Shown: positions 1 to 59,804 of the stretch, in pieces
How the letters are laid out: every line of letters starts with the position of its first letter
Numbering within the stretch: position 1 is the stretch's first letter
Assembly (NCBI RefSeq): GCF_017599345.1
Contig: NZ_JAGFVL010000035.1
Location: 1-64,000, forward strand
Length of the DNA: 64,000 nucleotides
From: Gracilibacillus suaedae
Lineage (GTDB): Bacteria > Bacillota > Bacilli > Bacillales > Amphibacillaceae
Reading direction: 5' to 3'
The notes under the pieces: generated by a model
Told to the model about the DNA's origin: nothing
The model's database searches: none
The model's input: the letters and a program-made list of their open reading frames with translations, nothing else
Position numbers and translations under genes: made by a program

Positions 1-187
1 GTAACGATTCGAAGTAAGCTTCCTCGGTGCAAGGGATCAAGGAAGATATTTCACCGTAGTTCCCTGGCTGAGGCCGTGCCCATGGAAAGCGCAGTGTTCT
101 GCCGGAGCGAATGACAACACTTCTCAAAAAACAGGATGGAACAACGCAAATCCATGTCCAGTTACTGCGCAGTTTATGGATTTTGTG
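1..187 (+). repeat. Structured intergenic repeat, copy A (left part cut by window edge)
   Basis: Right-hand part of the repeat family described in the findings. It holds the conserved block GGCCGTGCCCATGGAAAGCG at 73-92 and the right outer-stem arm GTGTTCTGCC at 94-103. A tail (about 105-187) continues nearly identically to the tails at 4580-4650 and 20947-21033. The inner hairpin here pairs AAGGGA with TCCCT, as in the 20545 copy. The left outer-stem arm is outside the window. Confidence 0.85.
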
Positions 188-2153: not shown

Positions 2154-2246
2154 TCTGTTACACTCCTTCCAAACCAATGCTCTTAACGAATTAGACGGCA
2201 GCGGAACATCGTTTATTCACCTTAAGCGTTCACTTAAGCACAACTA
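2154..2246 (-). promoter_or_regulatory. Likely L19 leader RNA of rplS
   Basis: Untranslated leader between the promoter and the rplS ribosome binding site. It contains a CTTAAG/CTTAAG hairpin and the block ATGTTCCGCTGCCG. This resembles the L19 autoregulatory leader I recall from Firmicutes. A covariance search for the L19 leader would settle it. Confidence 0.5.
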
Positions 2247-2277: not shown

Positions 2278-3017
2278 CTATTTTCTTGTGAAGTTTCCCA
2301 TTCTTTTATCCACTTTTCTTCTTTTTCAGTTAATTGCAGATTTTGCAATAAATCTTGTCTTCTAACATAAGTCCTTTTTAACGCTTCTTTTCTGCGCCAT
2401 TCTTCAATATGGGAATGATTTCCTGATAACAATACATCAGGTACTTTTAAACCACGGAAATCAGCGGGTCTTGTATAATGAGGGTGCTCTAATAACCCCG
2501 TAGAAAACGAATCCTGAACTGCTGAATCTTCGTTACCTAATACGTCTGGTAACAAACGGACAACACTGTCAATTACGACCATTGCTCCTAATTCTCCACC
2601 TGTAAGCACATAGTCTCCAATCGAGATCTCATCGGTTACGAGCTCTGTTCTAATTCGCTCATCATAGCCTTCATAATGTCCACATATAAAGATTAAATGC
2701 TCTTCTTTTGCAAGTTCTTCTGCTTTTTTTTGTGAGTATGTTTCTCCTTGAGGACACATTAAAATAATACGGGGTTTCTCAGACGTTTTTTTTTCGATCG
2801 CCTCTACCGCATCAAAAATTGGTTGAGGCTTTAATACCATCCCAGCACCTCCACCATAAGGGTAATCATCTACTTTATTGTGTTTATTATCCGTATAATC
2901 ACGGAAATTCACATAGTTATACTGAAAAGCTCCTGACTCCTGTGCCTTTTTTAAAATGGAAGATTGAAAAACACCATTAAACATTTCTGGAAACAATGAG
3001 AGTATATCTATTTTCAT
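2274..3017 (-). CDS. trmD: tRNA (guanine-N1-)-methyltransferase TrmD
   Basis: Methylates G37 of tRNAs with a G36-G37 sequence, which prevents +1 frameshifting. The SPOUT trefoil-knot region is clear: [14 protein letters not shown] followed by [14 protein letters not shown]. The 247-aa length is typical. It overlaps the last base of rimM, so the two are translationally coupled in the ylqD-rimM-trmD operon. Confidence 0.97.
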
Positions 3018-3526
3018 CAGTCTAATAATCCTTCCATTGGTTCAATTTTAATAAGTTGCTGGTTCGTATCAACTTCTTTCACTACTTGTTCAATATAAGG
3101 GATTAAATATTCCTTTCCCTTCTGCTTAACAACCCATACATCATTTGCACCAGGTGAAAGAATTTCTGTAACCTTACCTATAAGTTCACCATCGGTTGTT
3201 TCGACTTCGCAGCCTATAATTTCATGATAATAAAACTCGTTCTCTTCTAACTCTGAAACTTCGCTTGTTTTAATAACTAACAATGATTCTTTAAAATGTT
3301 CTATATCATTGATATTGTTAAATCCTTCAAAATGTAATAGATCAAAATTTTTGTGTACACGATGACCATCAATAGTAACTGGTTTTAATTCTTGGTTATC
3401 CTTTTCTTTAATCCATAAGGTAGAACCAATTTCGAAACGTTCGTCGAAATCGGTAATACGAACTACTTTTACTTCTCCTTTTATACCATGCGTATTGACA
3501 ATTTTCCCTACTTTTAAATGATCCAT
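3017..3526 (-). CDS. rimM: 16S rRNA processing protein RimM
   Basis: 30S maturation factor that binds S19. It has the N-terminal RimM domain ([16 protein letters not shown], residues 6-21) and a C-terminal PRC-barrel ([17 protein letters not shown] and [15 protein letters not shown]). The length of 169 aa is usual. It lies 18 bp downstream of ylqD and overlaps trmD by one base. Confidence 0.95.
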
Positions 3527-3544: not shown

Positions 3545-3931
3545 TTATGTAATTTTCGTAATCATGCCATCTTTTATAATAATGGATTTTTGTTCTGTTA
3601 AGTCATCCCAGTTCATACCTTCTTCAAGATCGATAACTGCTTCGACTTCTCCATCATTAATTTCACTCCCAATTGGTAATATTTCCAACTGTTCGAGTTT
3701 GTATTTATACCAATTAATATGGTCCTTGCGATTAGATAACTCTTTCTTGAATTTGGCTGCGATATCTGCTTTTTTGTTAGCAGAGCGTTGTTCCAATTTT
3801 TTCTGCTCAAATTTTAATTGTTCACATTCCTGCTCAAGTTTAAAAATTTTGAATTGATATCCTTCTTTCAATTGTTCTTTACTTTGGTCTGTTACTATTT
3901 TTTTGACGGCTACTTTTTTAATAATTTTCAT
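3545..3931 (-). CDS. ylqD: YlqD family protein
   Basis: Small conserved Firmicute protein of unknown function, always near rimM/trmD. The start MKIIKKVAVKK gives 128 aa, the length of B. subtilis YlqD, with GAGAGAGG about 8 nt upstream. The longer frame would add 30 residues that do not look family-like. The centre (about residues 28-75) is charged and predicted coiled coil. In B. subtilis it follows khpA (ylqC) directly. Here about 790 bp with a repeat pair lies between them, so it needs its own promoter. Confidence 0.85.
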   Translation of the reverse strand: MKIIKKVAVKKIVTDQSKEQLKEGYQFKIFKLEQECEQLKFEQKKLEQRSANKKADIAAKFKKELSNRKDHINWYKYKLEQLEILPIGSEINDGEVEAVIDLEEGMNWDDLTEQKSIIIKDGMITKIT

Positions 3932-4012
3932 TGCTTCAGCCTCTCTCTCATCCCTATTAAAGAGCATAGAAACACCTAACAAAAGAATAGCACGCCACCA
4001 AACCAAAGCGCA

Positions 4013-4040
4013 AGTATACACTAGAAAACCCGCACACTAA
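4013..4040 (-). promoter_or_regulatory. Possible promoter for ylqD-rimM-trmD
   Basis: -35 TTAGTG (complement of 4035-4040), 16-bp spacer, -10 TATACT (complement of 4013-4018), about 80 bp upstream of ylqD. It was sought because a repeat pair and a terminator separate ylqD from khpA. The -35 is weak. Confidence 0.35.
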
Positions 4041-4158
4041 TCTCCCCTCACCTGATTCGTAATAGATATATACTGCGAAGTAATGAAAATACTGTTTGTT
4101 CGAAACTAAATGCACAGTCAACTACGAAGTAATTTTGACATATATCGTGATCATAACC

Positions 4159-4288
4159 GCCACTCCGGCTGCCCACTTCCCTTTCCGTGGGGTTTGCCCT
4201 TCAGCTAACTTTTTCGAGCAAAAACCGCTCAAAAAAGTGGATCTTCAGGTCAAACAATTCCCACAGGAGTGGAAGTGGGCGGCTTTCG
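4159..4288 (-). repeat. Structured repeat core, copy B (reversed)
   Basis: Read on the minus strand, the outer stem pairs GCCCACTTCC with GGAAGTGGGC. A CTCCTGTGGGA block follows, then GATCCACTTTTTTGAGCG pairing with CGCTCAAAAAAG-like bases across the inner hairpin, then AGTTAGCTGAAGG and CCACGGAAAG. It is closely similar to the forward core at 59401-59531. Confidence 0.85.
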
Positions 4289-4458
4289 TTAAGATATGCT
4301 CCACAACACTAACCCGAAATCAACCAATCGATTTCTCCACCATATGTAGCATAGGTTCGACTATGCTCAAGGGGAGTACAGTCGATTAGCACTGTAATAA
4401 AACAGAAAAGTTTAGTTCCATGAGTTCATTTCTTTCTATAATCAGAATAACAAAAATA

Positions 4459-4586
4459 GCGGAGGCAGAATACGGAGACTCCTATGGGAACTCACGCGAG
4501 CCGAAGACCCCGCAGGAAAGCGATTTTTGCTTTCCGAGGAGGCTAAGGCCGTGCCCATGGAAAGCGCAGTATTCTGCCGGAGCGAA
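4459..4586 (+). repeat. Structured repeat core, copy B2 (forward)
   Basis: Outer stem GGCAGAATAC (4464-4473) / GTATTCTGCC (4569-4578). The inner hairpin is GGAAAGC / GCTTTCC, followed by GAGGAGGCTAAGGCCGTGCC. The tail after 4580 is nearly identical to those at 105 and 20947. Confidence 0.85.
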
Positions 4587-4686
4587 TGACAACACTTCTC
4601 AAAAAACAGGATAGAACAACGCAAATCCATGTCAAGTTACTGCGTAGTATATGTTTATGGCGCTCTATTTATTTAACCGTTCTGCT

Positions 4687-4719
4687 AAAAAAAGAGGGGG
4701 CTATTAGCCTCCCTCTTTT
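4687..4719 (-). terminator. Terminator after khpA
   Basis: Hairpin AAAAAGAGGGGGCT / AGCCTCCCTCTTTT with a T-run on the minus strand, directly at the khpA stop codon. Confidence 0.85.
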
Positions 4720-4946
4720 CACATAATATCTAAATAGATTTTTTTATTAGATTTCATTCCAGCTGCATAAACAACTGTTCGTATTGATTTGGCAATGCGA
4801 CCATTTTTGCCGATCACTTTCCCTACATCATTTTCATGAACTTGCAGGTGATACACAACTTTGTTTTCCTCTTCTTTTTCGGTAACAACGATGTGCTCAG
4901 GATGATCGACTAATGGCTCTACAATGGTTGCAATCAAAGATTTCAT
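4719..4946 (-). CDS. khpA: KH-domain RNA-binding protein KhpA (YlqC)
   Basis: Single type II KH domain filling the 75 residues. The GxxG loop is seen in GKVIGKNGRIAKSIRTVV. In other Firmicutes KhpA pairs with KhpB/Jag in RNA binding and affects cell elongation; that role here is inference. It lies 17 bp after rpsP and is followed at once by a terminator, so this operon ends here instead of continuing into ylqD. Confidence 0.93.
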   Translation of the reverse strand: MKSLIATIVEPLVDHPEHIVVTEKEEENKVVYHLQVHENDVGKVIGKNGRIAKSIRTVVYAAGMKSNKKIYLDIM

Positions 4947-4963
4947 CGAATCACATCACTTTA

Positions 4964-5233
4964 TTATTGATTTTTTGATTCGTGGAATTTCTTCATGATG
5001 CCTTCATTTGAGAATAAGTTACGTACCGTATCACTTGGTTTTGCACCTTTAGTCATCCAATCAAGTGCTTTATCTTCATCTAATTTCACTTCAACCGGGT
5101 TAACTACCGGGTTATATGTTCCAATTTGCTCGATAATACGTCCATCACGTGGAGAACGAGAATCAGCAACTACGATACGATAGAATGGATTTCTTTTAGA
5201 TCCCATACGCTTTAAGCGAATTTTTACTGCCAT
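4964..5233 (-). CDS. rpsP: 30S ribosomal protein S16
   Basis: S16, a 30S assembly protein. From [20 protein letters not shown] it is 89 aa, the usual length, with the conserved [21 protein letters not shown]. The start was chosen for GGAGGTG 7 nt upstream; the frame can be read 30 nt earlier. It lies between ffh and khpA, as in B. subtilis. Confidence 0.97.
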
Positions 5234-5311
5234 GTTTAACACCTCCAAATAAATATCTAACACAAGATAGAATTGTATCAGATTTATTTCAGTCTGTAAA
5301 GGGTTTTTACC

Positions 5312-11671: not shown

Positions 11672-11819
11672 GTTTAAAACCCCTATTTATTATCATCTAA
11701 CAACATAACTTGTATGTTGATGTTAATTTATCCTTTGCATTTCAACTTATTTATTTTATCATAAAGAATAGAGTAAGAGAAGGAAGTTTCATAAAATACC
11801 GAAATAGGAGTGAATTGAT

Positions 11820-12041
11820 TTGAATTTGGAAGAGAAATCCGAGGAAAATTTAGCACATATCATTCATGAGATGGGTAGAATGTTGCAAGTAGTTAATGAT
11901 TCTATAATGAATCCTAAAGATTATGACCTTGATAATTACGAAGAATTAAAATCCTTACATGATCTTTTGCAACAGAAAGGAAAACTAACGGTTGCCGAAA
12001 CCCAAGCATTTATCGCAGAGCTGAGAGAATACCGAAAATAA
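11820..12041 (+). CDS. DUF1128 family protein (YfkK/UPF0435-like)
   Basis: 73-aa acidic helical protein. It matches the DUF1128 pattern I recall: EKSEENLAHIIHEMGRMLQVVN, a central YEELKSLHDLL, and a C-terminal TVAETQAFIAELREYRK. Function unknown. It starts at TTG with AGGAGTG 7 nt upstream, and no ATG fits. It is divergent from smc; a candidate promoter (TTGCAT, 16 bp, TATCAT) lies in the intergenic gap. The gene ended in a 15-bp terminator stem that the IS256 element has split. Confidence 0.85.
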   Translation: MNLEEKSEENLAHIIHEMGRMLQVVNDSIMNPKDYDLDNYEELKSLHDLLQQKGKLTVAETQAFIAELREYRK

Positions 12042-12044
12042 TAG

Positions 12045-12059
12045 AGAAAGTCTTAGGAG
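12045..12059 (+). terminator. Left arm of a terminator split by the IS
   Basis: AGAAAGTCTTAGGAG (12045-12059) is the exact complement of CTCCTAAGACTTTCT at 13451-13465. With the IS and one target copy removed, the two form a 15-bp stem with a 14-nt loop 3 bp downstream of the DUF1128 stop. This would be its terminator. Confidence 0.75.
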
Positions 12060-13428
12060 GGGCTTGTCAAGAAAAGTGTGTAAGTTATTCTAAATACTTT
12101 AACACACGTTCATTGAGGTGATCATGAATTAACAGCTGATTCATGACCATTGCCCATTGTTGAATATGGCCACCTTCCCACTTATTTTCAAGTTCTTTGG
12201 TTCGTAAATACAAAACTTTTAGAAGGGCGTTCTCGTTTGGGAATGCTCCTTTTTTTGTCACTTTTCTAAAGCTGGAATGTATACTTTCTACGGCATTCGT
12301 AGTGTACATAATTTTGCGTATCGCACTTCCATAATCAAATAGTTGTTCCACATGGGAGAAATTCCGTTTCCAAACGTCAATAGCTCCAGGATAAGCAGAC
12401 CATTGTTGTTGAAAGGTTTCAAATGCACTATGACATGCTTTAAGGCTTGGTGCTGCGTAAACCTTTTTTAATGCAGCAGTAAAAGCTTTATAGTCTTTAC
12501 TTGGAACATACTTAATCGAATTTCTAATGAGATGAACCATACAGCGTTGTACGACAACTTGTGGGAAAATGGCACGAGCTCCATCTTCTAATCCACTTAC
12601 TCCATCCATAGAAATAAAGAAAATATCTTCTACACCACGAGCTTTTATTTCATCAAAGATTTGCATCCATTTATGCTTACTTTCCGTTTCATTTAACCAT
12701 AAACCAAGAATGTCTTTCTTTCCTTCCATGGTATAGCCTAACATGGTATAAACAGCGTATTTCTTGGTTTCGTAGTCGTTACGTACGGTCGTATAAAGAC
12801 AATCTACGAACACAAAAGGATAACAGTTGCTTAAAGGGCGACTTTGCCACTCTTCTAAATCAGGAAGCACTGTATCCGTAATATCGGATATCATTTCATG
12901 AGACACGGAGAATCCATAGATATCTTCAATCGTGGATGAAATATCTCGCTGAGACATTCCTCTTGCATACATGGAGATGACTTTATCCTCGATGGCAGAA
13001 ACATCTCTTTTACGCTTGGGAATGAGGTGTGGTTCAAATGAACCGTCACGATCACGAGGTACAGCAATATCCACTTCGCCATCTGTCGTTTTGACTGTCT
13101 TTTTTCCGTAACCGTTCCGTCTATTGTTTGTTTCCTTTTCTCCCTTATCATTGGATTCATAGCCCAAATGATGATTCATTTCACCTTTTAACATCGATTC
13201 AAACATCGGTCCGAATATGTCCTTTAATGCATGTTGCATATCTTCTACAGACTTTGGTTGATACTGTTCAATAATCTTGTTAGCTAATTCTACGGAGTTA
13301 GGATCTCTTTTGGGTTTGCCCATTTAAAACACTCCTTTAGCTTTATAGTTATTATTCTACCAAATAAAAAACTGTGTGAGTAAGAAACCGTACGCATTTC
13401 TTACTTACACAGTTAATATTACACTCCC
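12060..13428 (-). mobile_element. IS256-family insertion sequence, 1369 bp
   Basis: The ends GGGCTTGTCAAG... and, inverted, GGGAGTGTAATA... share an internal TGTGTAAGT, typical of IS256 terminal repeats. The flanks carry a perfect 8-bp duplication CTTAGGAG (12052-12059 and 13429-13436), matching the family's target-duplication size. It carries one intact transposase gene, so it looks recent and possibly active. Confidence 0.93.
12085..13323 (-). CDS. IS256-family transposase
   Basis: 412-aa mutator-type DDE transposase, complete. The catalytic acidic residues are placed in FVDCLY, SMDGVSGLEDG and TTNAVESIHSSFRK. The family CxxH pattern is seen in QRCMVHLIRNS. The N-terminal region includes MLKGEMNHHLGYESND, characteristic of the family. 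There is no frameshift or stop. It fills almost the whole element between its terminal repeats. Confidence 0.97.
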   Translation of the reverse strand: MGKPKRDPNSVELANKIIEQYQPKSVEDMQHALKDIFGPMFESMLKGEMNHHLGYESNDKGEKETNNRRNGYGKKTVKTTDGEVDIAVPRDRDGSFEPHLIPKRKRDVSAIEDKVISMYARGMSQRDISSTIEDIYGFSVSHEMISDITDTVLPDLEEWQSRPLSNCYPFVFVDCLYTTVRNDYETKKYAVYTMLGYTMEGKKDILGLWLNETESKHKWMQIFDEIKARGVEDIFFISMDGVSGLEDGARAIFPQVVVQRCMVHLIRNSIKYVPSKDYKAFTAALKKVYAAPSLKACHSAFETFQQQWSAYPGAIDVWKRNFSHVEQLFDYGSAIRKIMYTTNAVESIHSSFRKVTKKGAFPNENALLKVLYLRTKELENKWEGGHIQQWAMVMNQLLIHDHLNERVLKYLE

Positions 13429-18391: not shown

Positions 18392-20425
18392 CTAATTTAA
18401 TAATTGCTGATCTATTTCAATTTGAGAAAGTAAATACTCCATTAATGCTTGGAATTCAGGATTTCTCCACCATTCATTTTCGACAATATCGACTGCATCT
18501 GCTCTTGCTGTTTCCAATGCTCGATAATCGTGAACTAAATCTGCTAATTTAAATTCTGGTAACCCGCTTTGTTTGACACCAAATATATCACCAGGACCGC
18601 GCAGTTCTAAATCTCGTTCTGCCAAAACAAAGCCATCAATTGTTTCCGTCATAATTCGCATACGTTCTTTCCCTGTTTCACCTTTAGGATCAGCTACTAA
18701 AATACAATAGCTTTGCTTATCTCCTCTCCCGACACGTCCTCTTAATTGATGTAATTGTGATAAACCAAAGCGATCTGCGTCCTGGATCATCATCACCGTG
18801 GCATTCGGGACATTGACCCCTACTTCTACTACTGTAGTTGAAACTAGTACTTGAACTTTGTTCGCAGCAAAGTCATTCATCACCTGTTCTTTTTCCTCGG
18901 TCGTTAATCTTCCATGCATAAGTCCTACTGTTGCCTTATCTTGTAAAATGGTTTGTAATTGATGATATAAATCCAATGCATTCTGAATATCTAATTTATC
19001 TGATTCTTCAATTAAGGGACAAATAATATATGCTTGAGAACCTTTCTTTATTTCCTTATATACAAAATTAACGGTTCTTTCAAACATGTTATGCTTGACC
19101 CAATAAGTTTCAATTGGCTTTCTGCCCTTAGGCATTTCATCAATTTTGGAAACATCCATATCTCCAAATGCAGTAATAGATAAAGTTCTTGGTATAGGTG
19201 TAGCGGTCATAAATAAAATATCTGCTAAAATACCTTTTTCACGTAATATATTACGTTGTTGAACACCAAATCGATGTTGTTCATCGATAATGACATACCC
19301 TAAGTTGTCAAAATTTACATCGTCCTGAATGAGTGCGTGTGTACCTATTACGACATTACATGAACCATTTTCAATTTCTGTTAGCATTTCTTTTCGCTTT
19401 TTGCCCTTTATTGATCCAGTTAACCGATGTACACTAACATCATCTGGTAATAACTGTTTTAAAGACTCTTCATGTTGTTCCGCTAAAATTTCTGTTGGAA
19501 CCATTAAAGCAACTTGCTTACCTGCTGTAACAACTCCATAAAGACTAATAACAGCTACAGCAGTCTTACCTGAACCAACATCGCCCTGTAATAATCGATT
19601 CATCCGGTAAGGTGATTGCAGATCCTTAAAAATTTCTGCTAAGGCGTTTTTCTGAGCAGAAGTTAAAATAAAAGGTAATTGTTCGATCAACTGTTTTACT
19701 TTTTCCATATTAATCTCTTTGGCATTACCTTTTGTAGCTTCCCGGTTTCTCTTTCGGTAGAGTTGCATTTTTATTTGAAACAGCAATAATTCTTCATAAA
19801 TAAACCGCCTCTTGGCGTGTTTTAACTGTTGAAAGGATGGAGGAAAATGAATATTCCCCAAGCCATCGGCCCGATTTGGTAATTTGTACTTATCTAAATA
19901 AGAAGTCGGGAGAATTTCGGTAATTTGATCACGGAAGGTAGCCAATGCACTCTCCATTATTTTTTGGAATTGAGCATTTTTAATGTCTCCTTTGGAAGAG
20001 TAAATCGGGGTAATAGGACTTGAGCCTTCTATTGCGCCCTTTTTATAATTATCAATCGTTATTTGCAGCCGGTGTTGATCCCATTTTCCATTTACCGATA
20101 CTTCTTCACCTGGAATAAAATGCTTTTTGGCAAAGGCACGGTTAAAGAGGACACCCTTTACAACTGCTCCATTAACACGTAAAGAAACAACCATCCTGGA
20201 TTTTTTTCTTTGATAAAATTGTACGGTTGGCTCGTGGATAACTTCACCAACTATCGTCACTTTTTCATTATGTATCAGTTCATGAAGTGGTTTTTGTTCA
20301 TAATGATCATATCGGTTTGGAAAGTAATATAGCAGATCTTCAATTGTATGGATGCCAATTTGTTCGAGCGTTTCAGCAAGCTTTGGCCCGACCCCTTTCA
20401 CTTCTTGAACAGAAATATTATTCAT
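18392..20425 (-). CDS. recG: ATP-dependent DNA helicase RecG
   Basis: Branch-migration helicase for stalled forks and recombination intermediates. It has an N-terminal wedge/OB region (VTIVGEVIHEPTVQFYQR) and Walker A GDVGSGKTAVA. The DEQHRFG box, motif TATPIPRTL and the C-terminal QLHQLRGRVGRGDKQSYC follow. It is 677 aa from MNNISVQEVKGVGPK. An upstream in-frame GTG is only 1 nt from the purine-rich site, so the ATG with AGAGAGTG about 8 nt before it is preferred. Confidence 0.95.
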   Translation of the reverse strand: MNNISVQEVKGVGPKLAETLEQIGIHTIEDLLYYFPNRYDHYEQKPLHELIHNEKVTIVGEVIHEPTVQFYQRKKSRMVVSLRVNGAVVKGVLFNRAFAKKHFIPGEEVSVNGKWDQHRLQITIDNYKKGAIEGSSPITPIYSSKGDIKNAQFQKIMESALATFRDQITEILPTSYLDKYKLPNRADGLGNIHFPPSFQQLKHAKRRFIYEELLLFQIKMQLYRKRNREATKGNAKEINMEKVKQLIEQLPFILTSAQKNALAEIFKDLQSPYRMNRLLQGDVGSGKTAVAVISLYGVVTAGKQVALMVPTEILAEQHEESLKQLLPDDVSVHRLTGSIKGKKRKEMLTEIENGSCNVVIGTHALIQDDVNFDNLGYVIIDEQHRFGVQQRNILREKGILADILFMTATPIPRTLSITAFGDMDVSKIDEMPKGRKPIETYWVKHNMFERTVNFVYKEIKKGSQAYIICPLIEESDKLDIQNALDLYHQLQTILQDKATVGLMHGRLTTEEKEQVMNDFAANKVQVLVSTTVVEVGVNVPNATVMMIQDADRFGLSQLHQLRGRVGRGDKQSYCILVADPKGETGKERMRIMTETIDGFVLAERDLELRGPGDIFGVKQSGLPEFKLADLVHDYRALETARADAVDIVENEWWRNPEFQALMEYLLSQIEIDQQLLN

Positions 20426-20544
20426 TTTACTCACACTCTCTTAATTCAATTATATAATACAACCCACCAGGTTCTCAGTAGATATATACTGCGAAGTAAT
20501 GAAAGGTGAAAAAGTAAGGCTTTCTCCCATTCTGGATAATGATG

Positions 20545-20745
20545 AGTGCTGAAACGACGCTGCGGAAAAAATACTCACTTTCCGTGGGGAACGCTTCAGC
20601 CAGGGAACTTCTTGATTTAAACATATTTGTTCCCTTGCACCGAGGAAGCCTACTTCGAAGCTTTACTAGGAGACGCAGGTGCATCACGCGGGGTATTCAG
20701 ACTGTTCCTTTCCCACAGGAGTCTCGCATTTTTTCCGCAGCTTAG
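20545..20745 (-). repeat. Structured repeat core, copy C (reversed)
   Basis: Outer stem GCTGCGGAAAAAAT (20559-20572) / ATTTTTTCCGCAGC (20728-20741), a perfect 14-bp inverted repeat. On the minus strand it holds GACTCCTGTGGGAAAGG, the inner hairpin GGGAAC/GTTCCC and CCCCACGGAAAG. The interior resembles copy A (GGCTTCCTCGGTGCAAGGGA). Confidence 0.85.
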
Positions 20746-20829
20746 TGTAGTGTTCTGATGAAATAACAGGAAATCCTAAGAATATAGTTCCCTAAGTTCC
20801 ATTCTTACAATATCAGAACACTAAAATTA

Positions 20830-20953
20830 GCGGAGGCAGAATACGGAGACTCCTGTGGGACTCACGAGAACTGAAGATCCACTTGGCAAAGTGTTTTTCT
20901 TTGCCAAGTTAGCTAAAAACCGCCCACGGAAAGCGCAGTATTCTGCCGGAGCG
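20830..20953 (+). repeat. Structured repeat core, copy C2 (forward)
   Basis: Outer stem GGCAGAATAC (20835-20844) / GTATTCTGCC (20938-20947). Inner hairpin CTTGGCAAAG (20882-20891) / CTTTGCCAAG (20899-20908) framed by GATCCA and TTAGCTAAA, then CCCACGGAAAGCG. Confidence 0.87.
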
Positions 20954-21044
20954 TATGGCAGCACTTATCAAAATGCAGAATGGAAGAGAGCAAATCCATG
21001 TCCAGTTACTGCGCAGTATATGGATTTTGTGCTCAAATTGGATA

Positions 21045-21078: not shown

Positions 21079-22743
21079 TTATTCGATAGAAAATATATAA
21101 GAATAGATCGGTTGGTTACCTTGATGAACTTCCACTTCTATATCTTCAAAATTATCCTCGATAAATGCAATAATTTCATTTTCTTCATGATCAGTTGTTT
21201 CTTCTCCCCGAATAACAGTAACAATCTCATCTTCATCTGCCTCGATCATTTCAGTTAACAATTCCTTGATAACAGTCATTTGATCAGCGTTTGTTACTTT
21301 AATTTTTCCATCAGCAAGCCCCATATAATGACCATTTTCAATCGTCATGCCTTCTATCTGTGTATCACGAACGGCATAGGTTATCTGACCAGTTTTTACT
21401 TCCTTGCTTGCATCAGTCATTGTTTCTTTATTTTCATCCAAACTAAGCTCAGGATTATACGTTAACATAGCAGACATGCCTTGTGGGATTGTTTTCGTCG
21501 GCACTACTGCTACATTAACTTCAGCTAGTTCGGCAGCCTGTTCAGCAGCCATCACAATATTTTTATTATTAGGCAATATAATAATATTTTCAGCATTTGC
21601 CTCTTCAATAGCATTTGTTAAATCCTGTGTACTCGGATTCATGGTTTGACCACCTTGAATCACAACTGTTGCTCCTAAGCTTTTAAATAATTCTGTCAGG
21701 CCATCTCCCATTGCAACTGTTACTACTCCGAAAGGTTGCTTTGCTTTAGGCTTCTCTTTTTTCTGATCGACAATGCTGGAATGTTGTTCTCTCATATTTT
21801 CTGCTTTTAAATGAATAAAGCTACCAAACCGTTGTCCTAAATTGAAAACATCACCAGGGTATTCCGCATGAATATGAACTTTGACAATTTCATCATCTGA
21901 TACAACTAATAATGAATCACCATGCTCGCTTAATTCTTCTCTAAAAGCAGCCTCATCATATGGATGTTCTTTTAGTTTATCTTCTTCGAAACGAACCATA
22001 AATTCTGTACAATAACCATACTCAATTTCGTCAGTACTCATATAGTCTTGTGCCAGTTTGTGATGCTCTGCACTGACTAGATCATCTAAATCCATTGTGT
22101 CATCTTGAGAGGACTCCGGTACTTCTTCACCTTTTAATACTGCTAAAAATCCTTCATAAATCACGACTAATCCTTGTCCACCACTGTCTACTACTCCTAC
22201 TTCTTTTAGCACAGGTAAAAGTTCTGGTGTTCTCTTCAAAGATTGTTTCGCAGCTTGAACAACTTGTTCCATAAAAGCAACAATATCCTGTTCCTCTTCT
22301 GCAATTTTCTTTGCTTCAGCAGCTGTGTCTTTTGCAACGGTAAGAATCGTTCCTTCTACCGGTTTCATCACTGCTTTATAGGCAGTATTCACACCACTCT
22401 CAAGTGCTGTAACAAAGCTCTCAATATCCAATTTAACTGTTCCTTCTAATCCTTTGGCAAAACCTCTGAATAATTGTGATAAGATAACACCTGAATTACC
22501 TCTAGCTCCCATTAGTAATCCTTTGGCAAATGCATTAGCTACTTCTGAGACACTATCATGATTTGCTTTTTTCACCTCGTTTGCCCCGGAGGTAATAGAT
22601 AAATTCATATTTGTTCCAGTGTCGCCATCTGGTACTGGAAATACATTTAAAGCATCTATTTTCTCAGCATTATTTGCTAAACTGCGCGCACCAGCTAACA
22701 CCATATTGGCAAACAATGCCCCATCTATATTTTTTTGCGTCAC
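21079..22743 (-). CDS. fakA: Fatty acid kinase subunit FakA (YloV, DAK domain)
   Basis: ATP-binding subunit of fatty acid kinase, which phosphorylates FakB-bound fatty acids. The N-terminal DhaL-type domain has NVFPVPDGDTGTNM and GARGNSGVILSQLFRG (residues about 33-115). A central DAK1-like region and a C-terminal domain complete the 554 aa. The start is GTG with GGAGG about 9 nt upstream. It lies 69 bp from yloU, as in B. subtilis. The sda genes that follow in B. subtilis are missing. Confidence 0.92.
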   Translation of the reverse strand: MTQKNIDGALFANMVLAGARSLANNAEKIDALNVFPVPDGDTGTNMNLSITSGANEVKKANHDSVSEVANAFAKGLLMGARGNSGVILSQLFRGFAKGLEGTVKLDIESFVTALESGVNTAYKAVMKPVEGTILTVAKDTAAEAKKIAEEEQDIVAFMEQVVQAAKQSLKRTPELLPVLKEVGVVDSGGQGLVVIYEGFLAVLKGEEVPESSQDDTMDLDDLVSAEHHKLAQDYMSTDEIEYGYCTEFMVRFEEDKLKEHPYDEAAFREELSEHGDSLLVVSDDEIVKVHIHAEYPGDVFNLGQRFGSFIHLKAENMREQHSSIVDQKKEKPKAKQPFGVVTVAMGDGLTELFKSLGATVVIQGGQTMNPSTQDLTNAIEEANAENIIILPNNKNIVMAAEQAAELAEVNVAVVPTKTIPQGMSAMLTYNPELSLDENKETMTDASKEVKTGQITYAVRDTQIEGMTIENGHYMGLADGKIKVTNADQMTVIKELLTEMIEADEDEIVTVIRGEETTDHEENEIIAFIEDNFEDIEVEVHQGNQPIYSYIFSIE

Positions 22744-43963: not shown

Positions 43964-44127
43964 AAAATAGCGAAAAAACAATTAATACTCCTAGTAGCTT
44001 TAAATTTTTATTGAATTCTGTAAGACATTAATAAAACAGAACAAGAGGCTAGGACAGAAGCGTTTTATAATTAGTGAAATCCAATAGTCTGGGACATAAC
44101 TAAATAGGTAGAACGAGAATCCGAACT

Positions 44128-44256
44128 AAGCGTAGGCAAAATACACAGACTCCTCATGACGAGCACGCGAGCCGAAGATCCACTGTGTGAAGTGTTTTTC
44201 TTCACACAGTTAGCTAAAGATCGCCCACGGAAAGCGAAGTATTTTTATCGAAGCGG
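44128..44256 (+). repeat. Structured repeat core, copy E (forward, single)
   Basis: Outer stem GGCAAAATAC (44135-44144) / GTATTTTTATC. Inner hairpin CTGTGTGAAG (44183-44192) / CTTCACACAG (44200-44209) between GATCCA and TTAGCTAAA, then CGCCCACGGAAAGCG. No opposed partner is seen nearby. It lies in the 505-bp gap between the dehydrogenase and the catalase; the rest of the gap holds nothing I recognise. Confidence 0.85.
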
Positions 44257-44468
44257 TATGTGTACTCAGACTTTAATGTTCTCATTTTTCTTAATCTAAT
44301 TACTCTTTTTCCCAGCCTTGTTTTTTTCATGCATAGTATTTGAATATTTGTATGAACTGTTTTTTTATCCAAGTGGTAATATGGAATTTTGTTGTTTCAC
44401 CACTATTGACTAATTCATAAAAGATCAGCAACCAAAAACCACCAGTGCAGTACTTTGAACGGTTATTT

Positions 44469-45647: not shown

Positions 45648-45863
45648 ATGATGACAATTATATTAGGACCAGTAATTATAAATAGTAATGAAGGTATATT
45701 ATCAAATAACATCTTTATTGCTTCTCCAACATCAACAAGTAAAGTCGTTGCCGGTGCTGGAAGTTTTAACACAGGCGATTGGATAACAACCAATAATTTC
45801 TTTAATAGTTCTTCAGCTGTTGATCCAGATGCAATTGACTCGAACATTGATGATAGGATTTAA
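45648..45863 (+). CDS. GerPA/GerPF-type spore germination protein
   Basis: 71-aa small protein of the GerPA/GerPF family, which in Bacillus helps germinants pass the spore coat. Family features: IILGPVIINSNEGIL, ASPTSTSKVVAGAGSFNTGD and AVDPDAIDSN near the end. AAGGAAG precedes two adjacent ATGs; the first is used. It is followed 35 bp later by a second family member. Confidence 0.82.
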   Translation: MMTIILGPVIINSNEGILSNNIFIASPTSTSKVVAGAGSFNTGDWITTNNFFNSSSAVDPDAIDSNIDDRI

Positions 45864-45898: not shown

Positions 45899-46135
45899 AT
45901 GTCGGGTTCTTTCTTTAGATCAGTCACTATTAATAGTAATGAAGGATTTATTTTTAAAAATGCATTAAATGTATCTCCACCTTCTACAAGTAAAGTAGTG
46001 ACTGGATCAGGAAGCTTTAATACGGGCTTTTTTACTTTCAGTAATAATGGAATTAATACGAGTAGTGCAATTGATCCTGATGCAGATGATTCAAATATTG
46101 TAGATCCGATAGGTAGGGATGTCGGCGAGATTTAA
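45899..46135 (+). CDS. GerPA/GerPF-type spore germination protein
   Basis: 78-aa paralogue of the preceding gene: VTINSNEGFIFKNALNVSP, STSKVVTGSGSFNTG and SAIDPDADDSNIVDP. TTAGGGGG lies 6 nt before the ATG. The two make a tandem pair rather than a full six-gene gerP operon. Confidence 0.82.
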   Translation: MSGSFFRSVTINSNEGFIFKNALNVSPPSTSKVVTGSGSFNTGFFTFSNNGINTSSAIDPDADDSNIVDPIGRDVGEI

Positions 46136-54555: not shown

Positions 54556-54835
54556 CAAAAAAAATCCCACCCCCAAGACCTTAGTCTTGGGGGCGAGATT
54601 TACGCGGTGCCACCCCAGTTTATTAATATGTCACCATATTAACCTCTTCAAGTACGACAAAATATAATTTTGCTTATACTTTAGCCCTATAACAGGAGCC
54701 CCTGTCACGCCATCATTTTATAAATCCAACGTGATACTCTGAGGTTTGTTTCAACAAAATAATTCATACTCCTTTTCACCAGCTGGAGCTCTCTGATATA
54801 AATTCATTTTGTTTACTCTTCTCGTCATCGTATGT
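54556..54835 (-). ncRNA. T-box leader upstream of the MFS gene
   Basis: On the minus strand: AGTA box in GACGAGAAGAGTA (near 54805), AGAGAGC (near 54790), GGTGAAAA in the stem I loop, stem III AATATG/CATATT, and the T-box GGGTGGCACCGCG at about 54603-54615. The terminator CCCCCAAGAC / GTCTTGGGGG with eight Ts follows at 54560-54592. The specifier region reads GAGTATCACG. Reading TCA (Ser) fits the TGGC bulge, which needs a G discriminator base; ATC (Ile) is the alternative. Confidence 0.92.
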
Positions 54836-54949
54836 TGTATTTGAATGTATAATTTCATTTATGTTAACATTTGGTAGCTAAATTTTCAATATTTTTATTA
54901 AACATTCTCCCTGTTAGTGCAATTCATGCTAAAGAATAGCATCTATTAT

Positions 54950-58986: not shown

Positions 58987-59134
58987 TATGGAAAGAAAGC
59001 ATATAACCATTGATATCACAACTTTTGTAAGCAAGTATGTATAGGAAAAGGTGATTTAAAACATATATTTTAAGAAGCAAGAATAGCTATACAGATGGGG
59101 TTGCCATTTTGAAAGCCAGCTAGTGCCAGTCAAC

Positions 59135-59262
59135 CGCTATGGCTGACCGTTTCACTTTCCAAGGGGCCTGCTCTTTTAGCTAACTTTTGCAGGAGTACTC
59201 CTGCAAAAGTGGATGTTCAGATCATGCTAACGCTAAAGGAGTCGAAACGGTCGGCCTTCGCT
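59135..59262 (-). repeat. Structured repeat core, copy F (reversed)
   Basis: Outer stem GGCTGACCGTTTC (59141-59153) / GAAACGGTCGGCC (59243-59255). The inner hairpin is a perfect 28-bp palindrome at 59183-59210 (arms ACTTTTGCAGGAGT). On the minus strand it is framed by CATCC and TAGCTAAAAGAG, then CCTTGGAAAG. Confidence 0.85.
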
Positions 59263-59400
59263 ATCCTTTTTTCTACAACGAATAACAGAAAAAGCATATG
59301 GTTTTATAACCCCTATTAGTATTTCCTATGCCATACCTTACACTTTCACAGGGATAATAACCCAATTACCTGGTCTGACAAATGTTGTAGCACATGGACA

Positions 59401-59531
59401 AAGCGTAGGCCGCCCATTTCCACTCCTGTGGGAATTGTTTGACCTGAAGATCCACTTTTTCGAGCGTTTTTTGCTCGAAAAAGTTAGCTGAAGGACAAAC
59501 TCCACGGAAAGGGAAGTGGGCAGCCGAAGCG
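59401..59531 (+). repeat. Structured repeat core, copy G (forward)
   Basis: Outer stem GGCCGCCCATTTCC (59408-59421) / GGGAAGTGGGCAGCC (59511-59525). Inner hairpin CTTTTTCGAGC (59455-59465) / GCTCGAAAAAG (59473-59483) between GATCCA and TTAGCTGAAGG, then CCACGGAAAG. It pairs with copy F in opposed orientation. The 58987-59804 gap holds no other feature I recognise. Confidence 0.87.
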
Positions 59532-59804
59532 GTGGTCAAGCTGTTCAAGTATTTCATAATGGATGCTAGAGAAAAGTCATAAGGACTGAGCGGGTTTTTG
59601 CTTGTTTAGTTAAAGAAGTAACCATTTAAATGCTAATCTGTTCCAATGCGCTTTGAATATTGTCGGTCAAACCTTATACCTTTTGTCAAAAAGATTAAAG
59701 CCTTCGTATAATTTAGCCGGAATCAGAGAAAATAAAAAGTAAGTATCGTTCAATCTTTGTAACAATACTCATACAAATAACAGAGTCACATGGAGGTGTT
59801 TTAC

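Follow-up and report, generated by a model that had tools for sequence, protein, structure and literature searches.

A dispersed, MITE-like repeat family built around one imperfect hairpin in Gracilibacillus suaedae and across Bacillales

Introduction

The known kinds of repeat closest to the family reported here are REP/REPIN sequences and MITEs. In REPINs, inverted pairs stand in one fixed orientation and are separated by a short spacer, which is also how the present pairs are laid out. MITEs and repeats of the ERIC, BOX and RUP types are small, non-coding and bounded by inverted repeats, occur many times per genome and can fold along their length, and the present family is alike in these respects. 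REP/REPIN sequences with their RAYT transposases are built on a palindrome of 20-40 nt with a GTAG tag, and GTAG families are named there in Proteobacteria, Cyanobacteria, Chloroflexi and the PVC superphylum (PMC3733652). The bcr1-bcr18 repeats of the Bacillus cereus group are intergenic, some of them MITE-like and some with conserved RNA structure, and about half were transcribed in the study that describes them (PMC3446304). Finally, a survey of stem-loop families lists Bhal-1 of Bacillus halodurans, an uncharacterised intergenic family of 74 nt with 36 copies (PMC2267715).

The family described here was met in a 64,000-nt stretch of Gracilibacillus suaedae DNA, called the window below. It resembles REP/REPIN sequences in being dispersed and intergenic and in forming imperfect hairpins with compensated stems. 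It differs from them in the length of its core (about 100-190 nt, typically about 130 nt) and in its foot, which reads GTAG, GGAG or GAAG. Unlike REP sequences, it also carries outer inverted repeats beyond the hairpin, and several genomes with many copies lack a Y1 gene. Unlike MITEs and ERIC, BOX or RUP repeats, it places a shared core inside several unlike outer repeats, and no target-site duplication was detected. The family thus fails the description of REP sequences on size, tag and transposase, and that of classical MITEs on target duplication. The bcr1-bcr18 set is described as repeats of the cereus group, whereas the present family spans an order; the two are set apart by description.

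Results

A first-pass annotation of the window had listed eight repeat cores, although its text speaks of seven, and the covariance model R1 recovered all eight at or near the same positions. The features to which we refer are the following.

1..110, plus strand: core whose 5' part is lost at the window edge (R1 24.7 bits)
162-181: inverted-repeat end TTACTGCGCAGTTTATGGAT of the element of this first, cut core (end motif)
3017-3526: RimM, in the same cluster as the 4064..4656 element (gene-family match)
3545-4021: gene of 158 aa flanking the 4064..4656 element, no NCBIfam match; we take it to be ylqD from its gene order, and the label ylqC is applied in the same way
4064..4656, no strand: complete divergent-pair element with outer inverted repeats at 4064-4083 and 4637-4656 (end motifs, cores, gene families, gene order in relatives)
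4160..4291, minus strand: core with type I stem (GCCCACTTCC) (R1 134.6 bits)
4457..4585, plus strand: core with type II stem (GGCAGAATAC) and CCCCGCAGG inner hairpin (R1 109.4 bits)
4719-4946: KH-domain gene on the other flank of the 4064..4656 element (gene-family match)
4964-5263: S16, in the same cluster (gene-family match)
20480..21025, no strand: complete divergent-pair element between recG (18392-20434) and fakA (21079-22743) (end motifs, gene families, synteny in 16 same-genus genomes)
20557..20743, minus strand: long core with type III stem (CTGCGGAAAAAAT) and enlarged interior (R1 51 bits)
20828..20954, plus strand: core of type II (R1 129.4 bits)
44088..44318, plus strand: single-core element with outer arms TCTGGGACATAAC ... 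CCCAGCC and convergent genes on either side (sequence and gene context; boundaries by eye)
44128..44256, plus strand: core of E type (GGCAAAATAC) (R1 82.4 bits)
59134..59263, minus strand: core of F type (GACCGTTTC stem, perfect inner hairpin ACTTTTGCAGGAGT) (R1 97.6 bits)
59401..59532, plus strand: core of type I, forming a divergent pair with 59134-59263, 137 nt apart (R1 135.9 bits)
59583..59609, plus strand: degenerate terminator-like hairpin, intact versions of which end type I single elements elsewhere (sequence, by eye)

The range 59135-59531 holds the repeat as a divergent pair of cores rather than as a single one. The blocks that had been considered fixed are enriched genome-wide, but they are majority features and not universal ones. 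Exact CTCCTGTGGGA is present in only four of the eight window cores; it is one letter off in a fifth, the cores at 44128 and 59134 have other letters, the cut core is without that part, and GATCCA is absent from the 4457 core. In the G. suaedae genome there are 95 occurrences of CTCCTGTGGGA and 84 of CCCACGGAAAG, whereas their mirror images occur once and not at all, respectively. Within the window alone the enrichment of CTCCTGTGGGA is modest, with 13 occurrences at up to two mismatches versus 6.9 expected and one of 100 shuffles as high.

We then asked how the core folds. Alignment A1 comprised 60 cores, that is 57 of 65 extracted cores and three further window cores; three cores longer than 140 nt, one near-duplicate and then L028(-), L042, L068 and L076, which are deleted or perfect-palindrome forms, were left out. 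A structure of 44 pairs was drawn by hand from the aligned sequences and tested by shuffles and slid registers. It runs from a foot stem through a GNA/GNA mismatch, an outer stem, a CTCCTGTGGG/CCCACGGAAAG stem and a CTGAAG/CTGAAG internal loop to the inner hairpin, and the foot motif beside the stem is G[GTA]AG. The single-strand-origin motif CS-6 resembles the foot TAGCG[GTA], a likeness too short to weigh. The proposal that the stems differ from copy to copy and yet stay paired was borne out in A1, where 91.6% of the cells are paired and 26 of the 44 pairs have changed on both sides. The covariation score was 0.304 versus 0.119 after shuffling, each of five measures exceeded all 500 shuffles, and pairing fell to 36-47% when the register was slid.

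At positions paired in at least 80% of the rows, G-T mismatches on the given strand exceeded A-C mismatches in three alignments (51:31, 60:21 and 63:31). The counts are of cells in related copies, which do not represent independent changes, and two of these alignments had been fitted to the model. Both kinds of mismatch should be equally frequent under a cruciform or under neutral decay, so the given strand is probably the folding one. The excess thus speaks for a single folded strand more than for a symmetrical cruciform; strand-biased mutation could also produce it. Within G. suaedae, unpaired and paired columns are conserved to a similar mean degree (0.83 versus 0.81), with 24 of 42 unpaired and 46 of 86 paired columns at 90% or more. 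Across genera, the means are 0.70 for unpaired and 0.76 for paired columns, and 12 of 39 versus 25 of 57 reach 90%; the loci of this alignment, A2, came from a pattern containing the two conserved blocks, whose conservation is thus partly by construction, and L201 rows were excluded from the count.

The stems might instead have arisen by inverted duplication of each arm, the alternative that the first-pass annotation had set against its own reading. Such copying does occur, in about five distinct copies (nine strings with perfect-palindrome inner hairpins, over both strands), as opposed to 113 context strings of the imperfect inner hairpin. Because arm-to-arm copying happens, some of the covariation may come from mutation rather than selection. 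However, it would erase the mispaired loops, which are mostly kept in the genus, and selection or a copying requirement therefore still seems needed.

The cores are arranged in a strict geometry. As in REPINs, inverted pairs take one fixed orientation: in G. suaedae 32 of the 34 core neighbours less than 3 kb apart are divergent (head to head) with gaps of 80-173 nt, the other two being one pair of overlapping hits and one pair 2.5 kb apart, and in a 1.0 Mb part of Gracilibacillus lacisalsi 30 of the 33 neighbours within 400 nt are divergent. A gene inside the G. suaedae element was rejected, as gaps of just 80-173 nt are left in the close divergent pairs. Pair elements are enclosed by outer inverted repeats ATCCATAAACTGCGCAGTAAC ... 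CATTACTTCGCAGTATATATC, and their end motif, at up to two mismatches, occurs at 104 places versus 0 for the mirror image. Across 152 loci, GGCTGGGACA arms were seen in 11 and GTTGATT in 41, the remaining 100 being unclassed, and type I singles have CTTGTAAGGAAAG-like ends with a terminator-like hairpin. As in MITEs, numerous non-coding copies are bounded by terminal inverted repeats, judging from the end motif, the 18 pair elements in which both ends were recognised and the copied units of genome G006 described below. These 18 elements showed no enrichment of target-site duplication: the mean shared run was 4.56 versus 4.23, and runs of 6 or more were found in two of the 18 versus 8.2% of mispaired controls. 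Classical transposition with target duplication is ruled against by this lack of enrichment. An 8-letter match between the ends of contigs C46 and C25 is suggestive and was not counted as a target duplication. Downstream of the cores, a T-run motif lies 60-150 nt from 28 of 126 core 3' ends, and about 16 of the 28 belong to an AAGGAC-stem-GTTTTTCTTA type, whose stems vary in sequence yet remain complementary; a few of these are weak. In Sutcliffiella horikoshii (L218, 3798-6598), three same-orientation cores about 1.3 kb apart lie between tandem genes, a departure from the prevailing divergent layout.

Whole units are copied to new places. In G. suaedae, stretches of 345-512 nt with 99.2-100% identity recur at five contig ends, which indicates recent copying. 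In the relative G006, nine of 15 sites matching a Y1 transposase were fetched; eight are flanked on both sides by divergent cores, and the ninth has a core on one side and an interrupted second core. The eight aligned units, about 1.0-1.2 kb long, show 87-95% identity (mean 91%) from one outer repeat through to the other and have unrelated flanks, so the whole unit was copied. By eye, an 8-letter match suggestive of target duplication was seen in one of the eight units, with no consistent match in the others. A 92-aa open-frame fragment in a G006 unit is assigned to an IS200/IS605 transposase (NCBIfam NF033573, E 3e-20). When an autonomous transposon was sought, the candidates were only these IS200 remnants inside G006 units, possibly nested, and G006 is the one genome in which a Y1 gene flanked by the repeats was seen, as remnants. 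No PF01797 match was found in G002, G004, G010 or G014 (the last being G. lacisalsi), yet each holds at least 56 cores; G. suaedae has a single 50-aa PF01797 fragment without a core in the fetched stretch; and G023, G038, G047 and G051 have 3-16 PF01797 matches and no core. Nine Y1 loci of mixed subfamilies from G011, G001, G012, G013, G021, G031, G023 and G047 likewise had no core in the fetched stretches. With the Y1 loci of eight other genomes and the G. suaedae fragment lacking cores, and four high-copy genomes lacking PF01797, we lean towards the G006 IS200 being a nested passenger in the linker rather than part of the system, its nesting being judged by eye. Mobilisation by a RAYT, made less probable by the Y1-less high-copy genomes and partly revived by G006, was set aside when the IS200 was judged nested.

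The interiors of the elements turn over at fixed sites, with their flanks in place. G. suaedae and G. lacisalsi DSM 19029 are about 92% identical in DNA over 200 kb. At ten shared pair sites with flanks present in both species, six have other core types and two have a non-core array in G. lacisalsi; of the remaining two, one differs solely in the inner loop and the other is identical in core types and inner loop. The interior thus differs at eight of the ten sites, or nine if inner loops are counted, core types being assigned by motifs with one mismatch, a test in which E and II overlap. The outer end motif (up to four changes) was recognised on both sides in both species at seven sites; it was not so recognised at 82277, 153569 and C60:27387, the first of which is one of the two array sites. 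The arrays, of CCGGGGATA-type short hairpins, replace core pairs at G. lacisalsi C7 about 155,800-156,060 and C4 about 11,711-12,087. Single cores are present in one species and absent from the other at G. lacisalsi C7:230938 and G. suaedae C59:376284. Copies of the two species are largely intermixed, the nearest neighbour being of the same species for 64 of 128 copies versus 52.6 +- 6.9 after shuffling, and by the same figures species-wise concerted evolution is weak.

The elements are unevenly placed with respect to genes. They are depleted between divergent genes (6 of 78, versus 107 of 517 gaps in the background; Fisher p 0.005) and enriched between convergent ones (22 of 78 versus 89 of 517, p 0.028); some orthologous sites enter these counts twice, genes are taken as open reading frames rather than from annotation, and seven elements with far genes and elements lacking a gene on both sides within the stretch are excluded. 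Single cores between tandem genes showed no clear bias (16 in the same orientation, 9 in the opposite one). Occupancy of conserved clusters varies. In 17 genomes of the genus and one of the family, the ylqC-ylqD spacer, or the region upstream of ylqD where ylqC falls outside the stretch, holds a core match in eight; eight others have 63-247 nt and no match, a further one is truncated at a contig end, and the last has none. The fakA-recG spacer holds a match in five of 16 same-genus genomes, a remnant in a sixth and none in ten (spacers of 59-310 nt).

A search of the genome and its relatives with a covariance model, the check that had been suggested for this repeat, was made with a model built from 60 copies. 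It gave 147 matches in G. suaedae (150 candidates scored), and in a sample of 61 genomes of relatives, G. suaedae included, 53 match. The first-pass annotation had placed related repeats in halophilic and alkaliphilic Bacillaceae, which proved too narrow: in a sample of the order Bacillales, 197 of 299 genomes and 88 of 116 genera match, and a pattern scan of named genomes gave at least 118 stretches, 80 of them scored with the model, with genera from Peribacillus and Priestia to Planococcus and Lysinibacillus among the matches listed. In a phylum-wide sample, under stricter filters and with eight candidates scored per genome, three of 398 genomes match, G. suaedae included; among other genomes of the same order in that sample one of six matches. 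A weak core match (L231, E 6e-5) was seen in Pisciglobus halotolerans, which we take to lie outside Bacillales, and is possibly due to horizontal transfer or contamination.

No core of the window or of 18 named loci matched Rfam 15 at gathering score, where the only matches, all off the cores, were T-boxes, one L19 leader and one Bacillaceae-1; under permissive settings the 59 kb pair yielded weak matches only, far below gathering scores. On these scans of the window, the 18 loci and the 59 kb pair, a known RNA family was rejected. Plasmid or phage origin was dropped after one blastn query against each collection gave no match, records near G. suaedae being possibly absent from them. A literature search with the consensus and outer-arm strings, mostly outside subscription journals, returned no relevant paper. 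We found no named counterpart of this order-wide family in Rfam 15 (window and 18 loci) or in the literature searched.

Discussion

The cores thus belong to dispersed, mostly non-coding, inverted-repeat-bounded, MITE-like elements that are built around one imperfect hairpin of about 130 nt and are found across the order. The first-pass annotation had read the compensated stems as selection on a folded nucleic acid, either an RNA or a cruciform recognised by a protein. Selection on a fold is supported by the covarying stems and the G-T bias; the choice between RNA and cruciform, however, is incomplete because the cores are parts of dispersed copied elements, as seen from the outer inverted repeats, the divergent pairing, the contig-end copies and the amplified unit.

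The best explanation as a whole, to which we give about an even chance, is a MITE-like family whose hairpin acts as a folded strand read by a putative trans-acting enzyme. The hairpin would work as a folded single strand, either single-stranded DNA during copying or RNA. What the putative enzyme reads, while copying or swapping the element, may be the mismatches that are kept in Gracilibacillus, GNA/GNA at the foot and CTGAAG/CTGAAG round the inner hairpin. Such an enzyme would need the structure and not the stem sequence, so the stems could drift in compensated steps. In present-day high-copy genomes it is probably not a Y1/RAYT transposase. An enzyme that acts on single-stranded hairpins would agree with the lack of target duplication, the strand bias and the divergent pairing; the explanation also draws support from the copy number, the covariation, the fixed divergent geometry, the copied units, the interior replacement at fixed sites and the presence or absence at single-core sites. 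Against it, no enzyme was found and target-site duplication is not enriched. One transposase that reads the outer ends cannot account for every element, because the repeats there vary with the element type; across genera, conservation is lower for unpaired than for paired letters, which weakens the idea that the loops are read; and end motifs were recognised on both sides in both species at only seven of the ten shared sites. Arm copying, which makes covariation without selection, and the terminator-like hairpins with compensated stems in type I singles, which point to RNA, count against it as well.

These last hairpins belong to an RNA-level reading, which we consider possible but doubtful. 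Cores would be co-transcribed with upstream genes or transcribed from their own promoters and would act in mRNA 3'-end formation, processing, stability or termination, dispersal being secondary and copies being kept for their benefit. The depletion between divergent genes and enrichment between convergent ones speak for it, as do the G-T bias and the roughly 16 core 3' ends followed by AAGGAC-stem-GTTTTTCTTA-like hairpins with complementary, differing stems. However, no RNA rationale is evident for the divergent pairing, in many genomes of the genus the orthologous spacers of the two conserved clusters hold no match, and single cores between tandem genes have no clear orientation bias. Another proposal, in our view an unlikely one, is structure-read cassette exchange, in which fixed intergenic platforms of outer inverted repeats would have their interiors, divergent hairpin pairs with a variety of stem types or the unrelated CCGGGGATA arrays, swapped between sites by a putative enzyme that recognises the folded strand by its mispaired loops and not by stem sequence, amounting to hairpin-read recombination or homing across Bacillales.

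An IS200/IS605-type (Y1) system, whose ends the cores would be and whose TnpA/RAYT-like transposase would mobilise them, with pairs as the non-autonomous, REPIN-like form, draws on the eight of nine G006 Y1 loci flanked by divergent cores and their NF033573 fragment, on the divergent pairs themselves, on a foot motif adjoining the stem and on the lack of target duplication. We nevertheless hold it quite improbable, for the high-copy genomes without PF01797, the mere 50-aa fragment in G. suaedae, the genomes with Y1 matches and no core, the nine coreless Y1 loci of eight other genomes and the nested look of the G006 IS200 all stand against it. Without any recognising protein or function, mutation and recombination alone might maintain the palindromes, breaks or template switching copying arm to arm and gene-converting dispersed copies. 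The five or so perfect-palindrome conversions, the interiors replaced at fixed sites, the intermixing of the two species' copies and the lower conservation of unpaired letters across genera agree with this, but such a process should erase mismatches, whereas non-complementary loop letters are largely fixed within the genome (24 of 42 at 90% or more), and the GACTCCTG and GGAAAGCG blocks are kept across genera, though both are in the search pattern; we regard it as very unlikely.

The model also finds cores in Halalkalibacterium ligniniphilum (L265), a genus that we take to be the present one of B. halodurans. Bhal-1, from the survey by Petrillo and colleagues, may be a glimpse of the present family, the two being compared by description only. 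Present in two thirds of the Bacillales genomes sampled, and at up to about 150 copies a genome, the family leaves its mark on intergenic DNA, on the spacers within operons and on genome assemblies. It offers hundreds of natural variants of a single fold, in which selection on RNA, single-stranded DNA or cruciform is directly testable, and the replacement of interiors at fixed sites, between species whose DNA is about 92% alike, is an unusual form of turnover.

Several other features were noted along the way. In the window, an Rfam scan placed a T-box leader at 54586-54837(-) and a ribosomal protein L19 leader at 2174-2212(-), and a 110-nt direct repeat without a core match lies at 45667-45776 and 45918-46027 (70% identity, starts 251 nt apart). 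The fakA-like gene of L359 (G001 C87:487409-489077) is in two pieces with an internal TAG. Another dispersed repeat, CCTACGATAAAGAAGACTTGC(C/T)GATTGG.GAA, recurs near cores, in L077 downstream of 762 and in L317 (G007, upstream of ylqD). Finally, a different repeat of about 0.2 kb with ends TAGGAAAGTATAAA and TTTTCTTATA is inserted in G. lacisalsi (L373, C7 about 185692-185862) with an apparent 8-letter target duplication, TTATATTC, and its empty site is found in G. suaedae at C32:112344-112354.
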